This document shows positions 3,902 to 38,938 of a stretch of 38,938 bases of DNA, in pieces. The notes under the pieces are model-generated. The model did not search any database. It was not told where the DNA came from and worked only from the letters and a program-made list of their open reading frames with translations. Each line of letters opens with the position of its first letter. Position 1 is the first letter of the stretch. The stretch lies in contig SVRR01000018.1 of assembly GCA_015064745.1 (NCBI GenBank), positions 1-38,938 on the forward strand, read 5' to 3'. A program made the translations under genes and the position numbers. The DNA is from Oscillospiraceae bacterium. GTDB taxonomy: Bacteria > Bacillota > Clostridia > Oscillospirales > CAG-272.

Positions 3902-6900
3902 TTATTTTCCCTCAAAAATTTCGGGAAGCTTGACGCCGATCGCTACTATCGCCATATACATGACAAGTAAAATCAAATGATAGAGCGCGATATATACCGA
4001 GGGAAGAAAGGCGAAAATACCCAGCACACACAGAGCGATAGCCGCGCTACCGCCAAGAACGGCGGTAGCAAGCTTACAGCCCCAGCCGAATCGAAGCAAG
4101 CGGCGCGTACGAAGGCACAGAAGGAGAAGCCGTAAAAGCTTGCCCGAGCTTCCCGACGTTACAATACCGCCCGAAGCGCGCTCCGCGTAAAAATCGTTGC
4201 GTTGCTCTACCGTTTTGCTGACAACGTGCACCGAAGCGTCGCAAAGCGCAGAGGAGCGAGAGAGGGTTTTGTCATTGAAATTAGGGTCATACGTACGGAG
4301 AATGGTCGCGATGCCAAGTCGGTGCAAGCGAAGCGCGTTTTTCTCAAAGGTGGTGGAAAGGCGGTGCTCTATGAAAAACTTCAAGCACACCATTCCATTG
4401 ACGGAAACATAAAGCACACTGCTTCGTCCGTTCGAAAGAACTTTTTCATCCTCAGCGTCATACGTGGGGGTGATGCCGTTCGAAACCATGTACTGCCCGT
4501 TGCCTACAACAAGCTCCGCACCGTCAATAGCGGCACTGATACCGTCCTTCGTGGCATCAACCAGCTCAACGAGAGCAACGGCTACGTTTTTATCGGTATA
4601 CATTCCCGAAAAACGACCGCACAGAGGACCGCCTATGTGTCCGTAGAGCGCCGTCAAATATTTAAACACGACAGTAGGATCATCACAGTGCACCCGAATT
4701 CCCGAGAGCACCACGCCCGAAGAGGGCGCTGCCTCAATATCCTCAAAGGAAATCGCCTTTAATTTTGCGACTTCTCTGACCGTTGCTTCTCCCGCCACGG
4801 AGGAATCTTCGCCTGCCACGCGGTCGGTACGGTGCATACAATACGCGTGCATGCCAAGCATAAGAAAAGGCGCGGAGAGAAAGCAGCCGAACAACGCGGC
4901 TCTCGTGGCTGTGGCAGCATCGCAGTGGTTTGCAAAAAAGGCGACAAAAAAGCACAGAAGTCCAACAGCGATGCCGGAAAGCAGAATACCAAGGTTTAGC
5001 TTTTCATCCTCGCACACGGTACTGCATCTTTCCAAAAAGCCCTTTACGTTTGCAGTCTTTCGCACACGGTAAACAAGCGGTGTCTCACCGTCAAGGTTTT
5101 TGCCGAGCGCGTTCATTTCCGCGAGCATATCCTTTTTCGCGGCGGGAGAAAACAGGAGCTTTTCGCCCGCCGAATGGTTTTTTTCAAACACACGCAACGA
5201 CGTTTCGCCGTCAAGGACACGGAAGCAATAGAGAATGGCAAGTCCGATAGAGGGCACAAAGGACATGTACATAGTGGGCGTCCCCAAGGCGCCAAACACA
5301 GCGGCGTAAGTGAATGCCGCCAGCATCTCAACGACTAAGATGCTTTCCGGCAAAACACGGCCATGAAAAAGCCCCCTTGCGCCTACACACAGAGCGGGCC
5401 ATGCCGCGACGGCAACACATGCAAGCAGCACAACATCTATAATGCCCGCCGTTTTTACATCTACAAAGCCTGCCGGCACAAAGCCCTGCACAAGCGTAAT
5501 GTTTTCAAGGAGCAGAAGCACGAAGGAAAGCGCGGCGATCACGACCAACCGCGCGCGCGTTTGCCGCAGTGTTTCCCGTAAATGGTGACGCACGTAATCC
5601 GAAGCCGCATCCTCATCGCGCGCGCCCTCAATCTCCGAGGGAAAGCGGTAGCTCACACGATGCTTCCTTTTAGACGGCGCATCGTTCATTTGACCGTTTT
5701 TCGAGCCTTGTGCGCGATTGGGACGTCCCAGAGGAGAGCCGATAAGAGAATCACGGATACCGCTTGGCAAGCCCTCTATGAAATCTTCTTCATCGTCATC
5801 CAAATCGGCTCTGTTTTTGCTTTGTGCCCGCTCATCCTTCGCGCGGTATGCCGTAGGCGCAAGGTGAACGCGCCCTGAAGGCACATGGGAGCGAAGGTCA
5901 CGATCGGTATCGCTGAGCTCCGCTTGCGCTAAAACGACACGGGCATGCGCGGGAGGCGCTGAATCCGTCTCCTCGGCATGTACTTCTTCCTTAGGCACTT
6001 CTTGGGATTCATCCTCGGAAGCCTTCGCAAGAGCCTCCACAGGCTCTTCCTCGTGGTCTTCCGCAGATTCTTCCGTGGGAGCCTCTTCGAATTCTTCCAC
6101 GGATACCTCCGTGGGAGTTGCTTCGAGTTCTTCTTCGAGCTCTTCTTCAAGTGCTTCTTCGAGCTCTTCTTCAAGTGCTTCTTCGAGCTCTTCCTCGAGC
6201 TCTTCTTCGAGCTCTTCTTCAATTCCCTCATCAAGGGCTTCCGCCACTGTATCATCGGCAACGTCTCTCTGCGCTTCGTCAAGAGATGGTTGCGCGATCA
6301 CAGAAGGAGGCACAAACATCAAAACAGGAGTTTGCGGCAAGGGAGAAGGTGTCTTTTCTTCCTCCTTGGCAGGTGCCTCATCCTCAAAGGATGCCGCCTT
6401 GCGCTTTTCATAAGCCGCAAGCATCGCATCGTATTTGGAGGGATCAAAGCGACGGTCGGGAGAGAAGGGAGAGGGGGAAACAGAGGGAGCATCCTCTTCC
6501 TCCACGGTAGCATTGGGAACAAAGAGACTCACATGTGTCTCCGTCTTTTCTCTGAGAGGCGTTGCAGGATGCTCGACCTCGGTAACGACGACCGCATCCG
6601 AGGGTGCGGCGACATCGGTTACAAGCTCTTGCGCAACGATGCTTTCCTTTCGAATACGCACCGAAGGCTCCGTCTTTGAAAAAACAGGAGTGTCGTCGTC
6701 CAAGTCGATCCGGGAGACAGCCGCTTCGAGGGCTTCCTCGTTCTCTTCTTTGACGTCGAGGGAAACGCTTTCCTTCTCTTCCGTGCCGAGCATCGCGTCA
6801 ATGTCTGCAAAAAGGTCTAGCTGCACCGGCACAGAAGAGGAAGGAGAGAGATCTTCCGGCAACGCGGCTTCCGCCGTCGACTCTTGTATAACGAGTTCCG

Positions 6901-7141
6901 CATTTACCTCCTCAGCTTCATCAAGAGATTCGCTCGGTTCTCTCTCGGTGTCCGCACTCTCCTCTACGACTCCCATCTCCGTCTCTTCGGCGGAAGCATC
7001 GGATACGGCAGGCTCTGCGCTTTCGTCCGAAGCGGGTGCTTCGTCGTCCAGCCCAAACATTTCGTCAAGCTTACTCATTTGTGAGCGCAAGCGTGCAAGC
7101 AGGTCTTGCACTTGGTCGTTTTGATTCTTATCGTCCGCCAT
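3902..7141 (-). CDS. Large membrane protein resembling a catalytically dead P1B-type ATPase with an acidic N-terminal tail
   Basis: The protein has 1079 residues; AAGGAG 7 bases before the ATG at 7141 sets the start. Residues 1-520 are low-complexity, acidic and proline-rich, including an EEL-type repeat at 308-340. Membrane segments follow at about 531-553, 567-590, 599-617, 622-642, 716-738, 745-768, 1018-1045 and 1047-1071. The region from 680 on follows the order of heavy-metal P-type ATPases: an actuator-like strand, a helix where CPC is expected (here SAP, 756-758), the phosphorylation site where DKTGT is expected (here FEDIEA, 799-804), a nucleotide-domain-like GAELVVGNGQYMVSNGI (874-890), and RTYDPN where TGDN is expected (949-954). 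GDGIND is absent. I infer a pseudoenzyme; the role is unknown. Confidence 0.6.
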   Translation of the reverse strand: MADDKNQNDQVQDLLARLRSQMSKLDEMFGLDDEAPASDESAEPAVSDASAEETEMGVVEESADTEREPSESLDEAEEVNAELVIQESTAEAALPEDLSPSSSVPVQLDLFADIDAMLGTEEKESVSLDVKEENEEALEAAVSRIDLDDDTPVFSKTEPSVRIRKESIVAQELVTDVAAPSDAVVVTEVEHPATPLREKTETHVSLFVPNATVEEEDAPSVSPSPFSPDRRFDPSKYDAMLAAYEKRKAASFEDEAPAKEEEKTPSPLPQTPVLMFVPPSVIAQPSLDEAQRDVADDTVAEALDEGIEEELEEELEEELEEALEEELEEALEEELEEELEATPTEVSVEEFEEAPTEESAEDHEEEPVEALAKASEDESQEVPKEEVHAEETDSAPPAHARVVLAQAELSDTDRDLRSHVPSGRVHLAPTAYRAKDERAQSKNRADLDDDEEDFIEGLPSGIRDSLIGSPLGRPNRAQGSKNGQMNDAPSKRKHRVSYRFPSEIEGARDEDAASDYVRHHLRETLRQTRARLVVIAALSFVLLLLENITLVQGFVPAGFVDVKTAGIIDVVLLACVAVAAWPALCVGARGLFHGRVLPESILVVEMLAAFTYAAVFGALGTPTMYMSFVPSIGLAILYCFRVLDGETSLRVFEKNHSAGEKLLFSPAAKKDMLAEMNALGKNLDGETPLVYRVRKTANVKGFLERCSTVCEDEKLNLGILLSGIAVGLLCFFVAFFANHCDAATATRAALFGCFLSAPFLMLGMHAYCMHRTDRVAGEDSSVAGEATVREVAKLKAISFEDIEAAPSSGVVLSGIRVHCDDPTVVFKYLTALYGHIGGPLCGRFSGMYTDKNVAVALVELVDATKDGISAAIDGAELVVGNGQYMVSNGITPTYDAEDEKVLSNGRSSVLYVSVNGMVCLKFFIEHRLSTTFEKNALRLHRLGIATILRTYDPNFNDKTLSRSSALCDASVHVVSKTVEQRNDFYAERASGGIVTSGSSGKLLRLLLLCLRTRRLLRFGWGCKLATAVLGGSAAIALCVLGIFAFLPSVYIALYHLILLVMYMAIVAIGVKLPEIFEGK
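6122..6220 (-). repeat. Coding tandem repeat of acidic EEL units
   Basis: About 33 residues (308-340) of the pseudo-ATPase tail are built from units of three to four residues such as EEL, EEEL and EEAL, encoded by near-identical GAAGA/GAGCTC blocks. The repeat is in frame and could expand or contract by slippage. Confidence 0.85.
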
Positions 7142-7176
7142 GCCGTATCTCCTTTCATTGATTTTGCAGCGTTCCT

Positions 7177-7992
7177 TTATTGTTTGCCGAAATGCTGGCG
7201 CGCCGCCTCGCAAAAGAGGACCGCCGCCGCCGCGGAAACATTCATGGAATCAACTTTACCGTAAAGCGGAATGGAAAGGCGGAAATCGCATTTCTCTTCC
7301 ACAAGATGAGAAATTCCCGTACCCTCACTGCCAAGAACGATGGCAATCGGACCGCGAAGATCTGTTTCATAATACACGGAGCCGTCCATATCGGCACCGT
7401 ATATCCATATATTCTGCTTTTTGAGCGCATCTATGGTGGTGGCAAGATTGGAGACCTTGGCGATACGCATGTGAGCGATCGCACCGGCAGAGGACTTGGC
7501 TACCGTCGCCGTCAAGGTCGCGCTATGGCGCTTGGGAATGATAATGCCGTGAAAGCCCGCGCATTCAGCAGAACGAATGATCGCACCGAGATTGTGAGGA
7601 TCCTCAATGCCATCACAGATAACGATCATCGGCGCTTCACCGCGCGATTCCGCATAGGCGATGATATCGGAAACGTCCACGTACGTGGCAAGTGCCGCCA
7701 TGGCAACGATTCCCTGGTGCGCGGCGCCCTTGCACATGGCGTCCAGCTTTTTGCGATCCACTTCAAGCAGAGGAATACCGCGTTCAAGCGCTTGAGAAAC
7801 AAGCACGGAAATCGAGCCCTCTCGCTCGCCGCGCGCAACAAGGATCTTATCCACGTCCTTGCCCGATAAAAGCAATTCCTTTACCGCGTTTCTGCCAAAA
7901 ACGATGCCCTCGTCCGGCTCCTTTGCTTCGAGTGAGCGGAACGCCGCGTCCTCGCGTTTTTTCTTATATCTTCCGTCGCTTTCGTTTCTCAT
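7177..7992 (-). CDS. rlmB: 23S rRNA (guanosine-2'-O-)-methyltransferase RlmB-type (SpoU/TrmH family)
   Basis: This 271-residue SPOUT methyltransferase would methylate the 2'-O of a 23S rRNA guanosine (G2251 in E. coli), using S-adenosylmethionine. The N-terminal substrate-binding domain starts at FGRNAVKELL (about residue 32). All three SpoU motifs are present: NLGAIIRSAECAG, IVLGSEGTGIS and IPLYGKVDSMNVSAAAAVL, which form the knotted cofactor site. An AGAGGA sequence lies upstream of the ATG. It reads into the pseudo-ATPase gene 36 bases downstream. A charged N-terminal tail of about 25 residues precedes the domain. Confidence 0.9.
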   Translation of the reverse strand: MRNESDGRYKKKREDAAFRSLEAKEPDEGIVFGRNAVKELLLSGKDVDKILVARGEREGSISVLVSQALERGIPLLEVDRKKLDAMCKGAAHQGIVAMAALATYVDVSDIIAYAESRGEAPMIVICDGIEDPHNLGAIIRSAECAGFHGIIIPKRHSATLTATVAKSSAGAIAHMRIAKVSNLATTIDALKKQNIWIYGADMDGSVYYETDLRGPIAIVLGSEGTGISHLVEEKCDFRLSIPLYGKVDSMNVSAAAAVLFCEAARQHFGKQ

Positions 7993-37754: not shown

Positions 37755-37866
37755 CTCTCGACCTTTCGCCCTTCTTTCGAGAGCCTCTCTCGCGCAGCGA
37801 GAACGACCGTTTTTGCTTTTCTCGGAAAACGAGAGTTGTTTTGCAAACCAACGGTTGTCTTTTTGC
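37755..37866. other. Structured, gene-free segment between divergent promoters
   Basis: No coding frame is supported here. Three hairpins carry TCTCG/CGAGA stems: 37755-37783, 37788-37802 and 37820-37834. The last is enclosed by a longer imperfect stem, 37803-37816 with 37843-37858, that ends in CTTTTT on the plus strand. A small RNA or regulatory structure is possible. Confidence 0.4.
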
Positions 37867-37895
37867 CTGTTTTTGTTTTTTTGCACCTGCAACTA

Positions 37896-37924
37896 TTGAC
37901 ATTTCTTTCTGTTTGTGTTATACT
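37896..37924 (+). promoter_or_regulatory. Promoter of the XRE regulator gene
   Basis: TTGACA (37896-37901) and TATACT (37919-37924) are 17 bases apart; AAAGGAG follows before the ATG at 37956. Confidence 0.85.
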
Positions 37925-37955
37925 ATGACATAAGCAAAAGAAAGGAGAAAGCGGC

Positions 37956-38630
37956 ATGGAGATCAAAGAAACCGTCAAAGCAAACCTCATTCGTCTGCGC
38001 CGTGAGCACAAGCTGACACAGCTTGAGCTATCGGAAAAGATCAACTATTCCGACAAAGCCGTCTCCCGTTGGGAAACGGGCGAGGTGACACCCGACGTGG
38101 AAACGCTCGCACACCTTGCAACGCTATACGGCATTCCCATCACCGCCTTTTTCCTCGCCCCCGAAGAACAGCTTTCAAAGAAAGAAAAAAAGGCACAAAA
38201 GCGTGCCGAAAAGAATTACAAAAGAACACAAAAAAGGCAAGCGAAAAAGAGCGCGTCCGTCGCCACTGCCCCTTCGCGCAAGCCGAAGGACCCCGCCCGT
38301 GCACGTCGCGCGGCACTCCTTGTGTTCTCGCTCTGCTTTCTGTGGACGCTGGCACTCTCGCTCTTCTTTATCTTGCACACATCAGGGCTTAAAGGCGCTT
38401 GGTACACCTTTATTTGGGCTGTCCCCGCTACCTTTGTTTGCCTGCTTTTCTACTTCAACGCCCGCCACGCCGTCACCCGCCGCGTGTTTTCCTCCCTCTT
38501 TGTTTGGACGGCGCTGGTCGCAACCTATTTGCAAACGGCAAATTGGGCGCTCTTTCCCCTTCTCTTCCTCGGTATTCCTTTGCAAGCAATCATTTTGCTG
38601 TTTCCTTTTCTTAAAAAGAAAAACTCATAA
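37956..38630 (+). CDS. Membrane-anchored XRE family transcriptional regulator
   Basis: This 224-residue protein has an HTH_3 DNA-binding domain at about residues 6-64 (LRREHKLTQLELSEKI and SDKAVSRWETGEVTPDVETL). A strongly basic lysine/arginine-rich linker (about 73-118) follows, and then four membrane segments at roughly 119-141, 148-168, 178-194 and 196-219. It would bind DNA from the membrane and may sense envelope state or a small molecule. Target genes are not evident; the divergent GT8/PlsC operon is a candidate. It has its own promoter and terminator. Confidence 0.88.
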   Translation: MEIKETVKANLIRLRREHKLTQLELSEKINYSDKAVSRWETGEVTPDVETLAHLATLYGIPITAFFLAPEEQLSKKEKKAQKRAEKNYKRTQKRQAKKSASVATAPSRKPKDPARARRAALLVFSLCFLWTLALSLFFILHTSGLKGAWYTFIWAVPATFVCLLFYFNARHAVTRRVFSSLFVWTALVATYLQTANWALFPLLFLGIPLQAIILLFPFLKKKNS

Positions 38631-38640
38631 ATATAGCAAA

Positions 38641-38671
38641 ACACCGCTATCTCCGATAGCGGTGTTTTTTT
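38641..38671 (+). terminator. Terminator of the XRE regulator gene
   Basis: An 11-bp stem, ACACCGCTATC with GATAGCGGTGT and a TCC loop, is followed by seven T residues, 10 bases after the stop codon. Confidence 0.95.
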
Positions 38672-38736
38672 AAATTTACGTTTTCGGCAAGAGCACGCCC
38701 CCTTACATAGCGGCAAAGCAAAAAAATCCAAAAATT

Positions 38737-38816
38737 GACCGACAACGATGCCATGTGCGATTTGTGTGGGCGCCGCGCGTTTTATACGAACATCGCGCGA
38801 AGCAAAAATCGTACAG
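38737..38816. repeat. Structured repeat, copy 1 (with 20-bp internal insertion)
   Basis: It begins GACCGACAACGATGCC and ends ATCGTACAG. The outer parts form a stem, TGTGCGATTT (38754-38763) with AAATCGTACA (38806-38815). Relative to copy 2 it holds 20 extra bases ending in a duplicated CGCGCG (38780-38799). Confidence 0.85.
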
Positions 38817-38837
38817 GGCTAGGCGTAAGGGAGCGAG

Positions 38838-38872
38838 GGCGCTGACGGTGTAGTTCCCTACTCCGAAGCGCC
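38838..38872. other. Hairpin between the two repeat copies
   Basis: GGCGCT (38838-38843) pairs with AGCGCC (38867-38872) and inside it CGG-T-GTAG (38846-38853) pairs with CTAC-T-CCG (38858-38865) around a TTCC loop. The fold is regular enough to suggest a structured RNA or DNA element. Confidence 0.6.
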
Positions 38873-38878
38873 TGAATC

Positions 38879-38938
38879 GACCGACAACGACGCCATGTGC
38901 GATTTGTGCGAGCGCCGCGCGAAGCAGAAATCGTACAG
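38879..38938. repeat. Structured repeat, copy 2 (reaches the right edge)
   Basis: Sixty bases match copy 1 apart from a few substitutions and the missing 20-bp insertion, 142 bp downstream of it. The stem TGTGCGATTT (38896-38905) with AAATCGTACA (38928-38937) is kept. The window ends exactly at the unit's last shared base, so more copies may follow. Confidence 0.85.

Follow-up and report, generated by a model that had tools for sequence, protein, structure and literature searches.

A stop-codon-anchored hairpin repeat of about 125 bases in an Oscillospiraceae genus shares a conserved core with repeats of other phyla, including a Correia element

The right end of the window (the whole 38,938-nt stretch analysed, contig SVRR01000018.1 of an Oscillospiraceae bacterium) carries an array of hairpin-forming repeats, which follows a gene without an NCBIfam family at 1e-10 and is cut by the contig end (Table 1). 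The inverted repeat directly behind this gene is an ordinary intrinsic-terminator-like hairpin and lies outside the element. The initial annotation had described two copies of a unit 142 bp apart, one of them with a 20-base insertion bringing a second CGCGCG, and both observations were recovered: 38733-38779 and 38875-38921 are direct copies of 47 nt with 91% identity at this spacing, and the insertion lies at 38780-38799. The region 38737-38938 is free of open reading frames (ORFs) of 100 aa or more, in agreement with its statement that the array is non-coding. The proposed alternation of unit and hairpin, however, was a wrong parsing, as the unit is the base and the hairpin the tip of one and the same element; the hairpin itself is real, not as a separate entity but as the apex of a single fold. 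On the + strand, the stretch 38790-38938 forms a hairpin spanning 38793-38922 with -61.1 kcal/mol (z -3.4; none of 200 dinucleotide shuffles equally stable), the opposite strand reaching -55.5 kcal/mol (z -1.8; 13 of 200 shuffles equally stable). The covariance model described below matches the window with an E-value of 1.5e-29, the window copy being one of the 26 rows from which it was built. Copy 1 probably represents an element minus its central ~60 nt.

Table 1 Features at the right end of the window
Position	Strand	Feature	Remarks
37956-38630	+	Gene upstream of the array	N-terminal part resembles an XRE-type helix-turn-helix (by reading of the sequence)
38628-38678	+	Inverted repeat and T run behind the XRE-like gene	Arms 88% complementary
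38713-38779	+	Copy 1, probable element remnant	Short left arm joined to right half; left limit uncertain
38790-38922	+	Copy 2, complete element	Single long imperfect hairpin, ~130 nt
38816-38825	+	Conserved core, 5' half	GGGCTAGGCG in the window; consensus form AGACAAGGCG
38838-38872	+	Apical stem-loop	GTAG-TTCC-CTAC at 38850-38861; read as a GGAA loop on the opposite strand
38885-38896	+	Conserved core, 3' half	CAACGACGCCAT in the window; consensus form CAACGMAGTATT
38917-38938	+	Left arm of the next copy	Truncated at the edge of the contig

The first 119 bases of another contig of this genome, C5, are identical to window 38815-38933; the contig break therefore most likely falls inside a tandem repeat, and the copy running off the edge very likely continues on C5, as the initial annotation had expected. 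By reading, C5 exits the repeat past base 119 differently from the window, and the last part of its first 312 bases is a larger element-like stretch, which abuts the 3' end of infB and drew no match from the covariance model. This stretch (L008:97-312) has element-like arms around ~130 nt of unrelated interior, right at the infB stop, and would be either a larger variant of the element or an insertion into it. The overlap suggests the gene order XRE-like gene, array, infB, the two contigs being unjoined. The idea that the array begins a larger system was not supported, as no associated protein was found and the array, as read on C5, ends at infB. Elsewhere in the window, tandem repeats of 12, 24 and 36 bp lie at 6057-6222 within a long ORF (3902-7213); since all these lengths are multiples of three, they probably encode a repetitive protein stretch.

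A covariance model built from 26 aligned copies gave 18 matches in this genome, far more than the two copies visible in the window. Matches were found in 49 of the 69 genomes of the genus including this one (maximum 31 in one genome), in 27 of 295 genomes of the order and in 18 of 291 of the class, both counts again including this genome and the searches over more than 40 genomes having been run with stricter filters. Plain DNA similarity reached only 17 of 79 genomes, this one included. Further arrays of this genome include four tandem copies with a period of 160 between hpt and rnj on contig C8 (82-86% DNA identity to the window copy), five tandem copies at the 3' end of dnaN on the same contig (covariance model) and diverged copies between argB and argD on C28 (DNA search). 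A CRISPR array, already disfavoured by the initial annotation, was rejected: the tandem units measure 122-160 nt and the whole 160-nt period on C8 repeats at 99%, whereas a CRISPR array has short identical repeats with unique spacers. Several contigs (G004:C8, G090:C54, C74 and C109, G038:C1 and others) start or stop in or next to arrays, and copy numbers in draft genomes are for this reason probably undercounts. Near-identical, dispersed copies occur in three genomes outside the genus (G249, G389, G511), and in two of these, G389 and G511, the core was read within elements that resemble MITEs, with inverted ends and mostly a TA at their borders. In larger elements of G389 (L119-L125) and G249 (L111-L118), a second similar hairpin domain (GCCT...CGGCGAT...TTTTGG...GGCGC.AGCCT...AAAATCT...) can be read in the ~120 nt 5' of the core, and this domain may be a repeat family of its own.

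Each copy is an imperfect hairpin of 110-135 nt, built from a variable outer stem, a conserved asymmetric core, a variable inner stem and a short apical stem-loop. In the consensus form of the core, AAGAC-AAG-GCG lies opposite C-AA-CGC-A-GTATT, and the outer helix contains a G.A mismatch, which in the window copy sits one pair further out. In an alignment of 148 matches from the window and 99 chosen loci, 91.0% of the cells are paired as compared to 69.8% after shuffling and 29-42% in slid controls, and 27 of 30 pairs changed on both sides; it should be noted that an alignment fitted to the model favours pairing and that related copies are counted many times in these figures. After thinning to 84 copies with less than 80% identity to one another, 77 fold with a z-score below -2 against mononucleotide shuffles. 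The initial annotation's proposal of a family of repeated, structured elements, with stems to be examined for covariation, is supported by these dispersed and tandem copies, whose stems are kept with strong covariation, the opposite of the refuting outcome it had named (two copies only, stems not conserved in relatives). The outer arms are locus-specific yet complementary to each other: 7.6 of 12 positions pair within a locus, in comparison to 6.2 +/- 0.13 when arms are swapped between loci (83 copies).

Concerning the position of the elements, copies were grouped into 106 clusters (72 holding one model match and 34 holding two to five) and genes were called with a crude custom ORF caller, convergent ORFs being measured stop to stop. 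A downstream ORF of 200 aa or more is present in 81 clusters; it was called convergent in 64 and same-strand in 17. Among the convergent ones, 58 ORFs end within -20 to +5 nt of the element, 34 at exactly -17, where the TAA stop comes from the ATTTAT arm of the element itself. Same-strand downstream genes were rejected as mostly antisense frames: 15 of the 17 face a convergent ORF of 191-686 codons ending within the same range, and 14 of these 15 ORFs carry a Pfam domain (seryl-tRNA synthetase, infB, amino acid kinase, queA, serine dehydratase and others). In a wider set of 23 same-strand downstream calls, 17 lie over a convergent ORF that is 190 codons or longer. Altogether, a convergent ORF ends within -20 to +5 nt in 73 of the 81 clusters. 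Taking all clusters, 76 of 106 have a convergent ORF of 100 codons or more whose end falls in the tested range, 38 stopping on the TAA of the element; the other 30 have none, 10 with less than 320 nt left on that side and 20 with enough. The ORF calls were checked by NCBIfam (a family in 7 of 8 proteins) and by Pfam (a domain in 18 of 20, comprising the 15 convergent ORFs above plus 5 out of a random sample of 10 from the 64). The element is hence oriented against gene 3' ends and often contains the stop codon; in this genome rnj, dnaN, argB and, by reading, infB are anchored in this way. Gene distances on the 5' side are spread from 14 to 585 nt, besides four overlaps. An ordinary intrinsic terminator was rejected as the nature of the element: our custom terminator scan placed a site inside the element span at 7 of the 64 gene ends that carry an element (those with enough sequence and a convergent ORF of 150 codons or more), in comparison to a terminator-like site within 120 nt in 20 of 56 control gene ends. 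In 15 of the 64, an extra terminator-like hairpin stands just past the element, a finding that counts against the 3'-end role proposed below.

The queA gene offers a series of such ends. Thirty loci were read, 27 of them with a readable end, and the element was at the stop codon in 18, partial in 3 and absent in 6; two of the element-free ends (L206, L208) have an ordinary terminator-like hairpin instead. The position of the last QueA residue is the same with or without the element. The last codons differ between loci, reading TTCATTCAA (L203), TTCATCCAA (L211), TTGATTGTA (L213), CTGATTGTA (several loci) or CTCATCGAA (L209), and in each case the far arm of the hairpin is complementary or nearly so. 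One exception is L226 (G002), where the outer arm fits TTCATT codons and the gene reads CTGATT, a mismatch which may mark a recent gene conversion or replacement.

We regard it as reasonably probable (roughly 0.6) that the array belongs to a Correia-type, MITE-like family of mobile hairpins, which in this clade has become a tandem, stop-codon-anchored 3'-end element. Copies would spread as non-autonomous mobile elements and subsequently expand in tandem, and those surviving in the clade would sit where the element supplies the stop codon or directly follows it. There, the element could act as a 3' hairpin in transcript end formation or in protection from 3' exonucleases, and the match between outer arm and last codons might be upheld because the hairpin is under selection or because one arm is copied from the other by folding back. 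The main rival, which we consider rather unlikely, is a purely selfish MITE family of no benefit to the host, persisting only at harmless sites such as those behind stop codons, with its orientation fixed by an early in-frame stop that is found at just one of its ends. The patchy distribution across genus, order and class, the near-identical dispersed copies and the contigs breaking within tandem arrays would all suit such a family. Neutral insertion, however, should also leave copies tens of bases past stop codons and in the other orientation, which is at odds with the narrow range found in 73 of 81 clusters, and the spread of distances on the other side is unlike the anchored side; furthermore, the outer arms at queA mostly track the codons across species.

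The hairpin has a strand bias, the folded form being RNA or single-stranded DNA. The window + strand folds better than its opposite in 78 of the 84 thinned copies, and at pairs commonly Watson-Crick it shows G.U rather than A-C in 131 vs 30 cells, counts which shared ancestry inflates; by column, the G.U excess is seen in 18 of 21 informative pairs (hand count; p about 0.0015). This G.U-rich strand is antisense to the anchored gene, and an opposing signal comes from the GNRA loop, which reads on the gene-sense strand in 109 of 148 copies. The structured RNA suggested by the initial annotation is upheld in part, as regards a hairpin with a strand bias, which may be RNA or single-stranded DNA. 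A host regulatory or processing RNA, in which transcription of the array's + strand would yield a non-coding RNA (a sponge, protein-binding or processed) and tandem copies would raise its dose, would profit from the better folding and the G.U excess of this strand, and yet we judge it quite improbable: among the 49 clusters whose 5' side has an ORF of 200 aa or more, 35 have this gene pointing away, so in many contexts nothing obvious transcribes the + strand, and the G.U cell counts suffer from the above-mentioned ancestry. Nor is there an Rfam match over threshold, known families being rejected in the window and in 11 further loci; the search on window 37800-38938 yielded 17 matches up to E 5, none over the gathering score, and the 11 loci gave two tRNAs and nothing else. 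A tRNA-like nature was likewise rejected, ARAGORN remaining empty on ten loci, and so was a phage origin, 38790-38926 being without match in the phage collection.

Hairpins, tandem clusters and nearness to stop codons resemble the biology of REP/BIME sequences, and an element of REP/RAYT type moved by a Y1 single-strand transposase is in spite of these features highly improbable, given its length of 110-135 nt and the absence of Y1_Tnp matches both in this draft genome (89.9% complete) and in four other drafts (G014, G019, G037, G039) with 10-19 element matches each. Across the genus, Y1_Tnp matches occur in 18 of 69 genomes at E<=0.001, 15 over the cut-off, and show by eye no clear relation to element copy number. 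A partner transposon was sought as well, and in G389, G421 and G511 no two such ends were seen spaced at the length of a transposon, G389 and G421 being draft genomes with contigs ending near such ends.

Returning to the favoured mobile hairpin family, one scan of the species-genome collection with the pattern AGACAAGGCGN{34,64}CAACGMAGTATT gave at least 120 stretches, the chance expectation being about two matches in the whole collection (hand estimate, equal base use). Among the matches listed are 80 loci, of which 29 belong to Bacillota by record title; the others include Pseudomonas, Psychromonas, Pantoea, relatives of Nitrosomonas and Gallionella, and Desulfocapsa, as well as Gemmatimonadota, Bacteroidota, Moraxella, Neisseriaceae and Alcaligenaceae. 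Several of these loci share one genome and single MAG matches may be binning errors; isolates are present among the matches for Pseudomonas, Psychromonas, Nitrosomonas marina and Pantoea. Calditrichales was left out of the phylum tally, as its one record (L291) was placed in the class of the window. Reducing 79 usable matches to 51 non-redundant ones, the outer 20-nt arms pair at 13.9 of 20 positions vs 9.87 +/- 0.21 when swapped. The core AGACAAGGCG...CAACGMAGTATT recurs across several phyla, inside locus-specific hairpins. The strand bias is weak outside the genus (GU vs AC 41 vs 23 in outer stems, 11 vs 15 in inner stems). Of 57 matches, 28 have the end of a convergent ORF of 120 codons or more no further than 60 nt from their 3' side, and 12 have one as close to their 5' side, a count which leaves out 29 matches too near the locus edge and in which GC-rich genomes contribute many chance ORFs.

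The Correia elements have so far been treated as a matter of Neisseria in the literature covered. Among the papers listed for the literal core words none was on repeats by title, and among titles and beginnings of abstracts on repeats, on relations to Correia or ERIC and on clostridial intergenic repeats no such link was present, figures, supplements and subscription papers lying outside this scope. A core shared by several phyla, conserved inside and variable at the ends, points to one recognition mechanism. More tentatively, and with considerable doubt, one ancient hairpin core may underlie Correia elements, the clostridial arrays and many unnamed repeats across phyla, with some common machine reading folded single-stranded DNA or RNA; precise entry at gene 3' ends and fold-back capture of the inverted last codons might then have turned element and coding end into one co-evolving stem. 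Independently of this, stop-codon anchoring at housekeeping genes (rnj, dnaN, queA, argB, tRNA synthetases) provides a natural series of related species whose gene ends carry or lack the element, and effects of repeats on mRNA ends are therefore directly testable.

Among known repeats, REP/BIME sequences are likewise palindromic and clustered, and typically lie near stop codons. The initial annotation's REP-like dispersed element holds as to dispersal and not as a REP in the strict sense: REP/BIME sequences are RAYT-linked, whereas this draft genome has no Y1_Tnp match, the family is far longer than the 20-40 bp of a REP unit (PMC3733652), and its GTAG lies in the apical stem instead of forming an end tag (GTAG or CGTC). 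MITEs are similar in being short, non-coding, multi-copy and hairpin-forming, and the copies of G389 and G511 with the core inside look TA-bounded by reading. Signs of the TA target-site duplication and common terminal inverted repeats of MITEs were read in G389 and G511; in the genus of the window the outer arms are locus-specific and no target-site duplication has emerged. Conservation here falls on the inner core and variation on the ends, while a transposase acting on the ends predicts the opposite pattern. By description alone, a likeness also exists to the BRE of Betaproteobacteria, ~90-bp repeats that are mostly intergenic, sometimes tandem (up to 8) and suspected to be mobile (PMC3110155). 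ERIC/IRU sequences of enterobacteria are intergenic hairpin repeats too, and the E. coli copy L353 has AAGGCG and AACGCAG at the corresponding stem sides; the full core is absent, however, and the enterobacterial consensus is not reached beyond short stretches shared with L353, so that a kinship is suggestive only. ERIC insertions at gene 3' ends alter transcript levels in Yersinia (PMC10969869).

The comparison with Correia elements (CREE/NEMIS), equally short, non-coding, multi-copy hairpin elements, extends to the core. An Alcaligenaceae copy (L300) has at least 40 matches per record in two gonococcal records, and five per record in two from Cupriavidus. Two 2.17-Mb gonococcal replicons (NZ_CP119140.1, NZ_CP119142.1) are filed as plasmids and by their size are chromosomes. 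The Cupriavidus copy, by reading, has GGCTAGGCG and CAACGACGCC, the core variant also carried by the window, and lacks the G.A mismatch, which consequently is not a universal feature of the core. According to a review (PMC10969869), Correia elements for the most part stand directly in front of genes, bring promoters and undergo cleavage by RNase III, while the window element stands in a tandem array and its family mostly behind stop codons; the 26-bp terminal repeats beginning TATAGTGGATTAA are absent from the ends of the window element and of the other copies read. The one gonococcal stretch read (L354) contains AGGACAAGGCG and CAACGCCGTACT, and its end, TTAATCCACTATA, is a published Correia end (PMC5039591; Correia ends also in PMC9778887). 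With GGACAAGGCG...CAACGCCGTACT set against the family consensus, this single Neisseria copy appears to carry the same core, its outer core helix differing by compensated changes, AGGAC/GTACT for AAGAC/GTATT.
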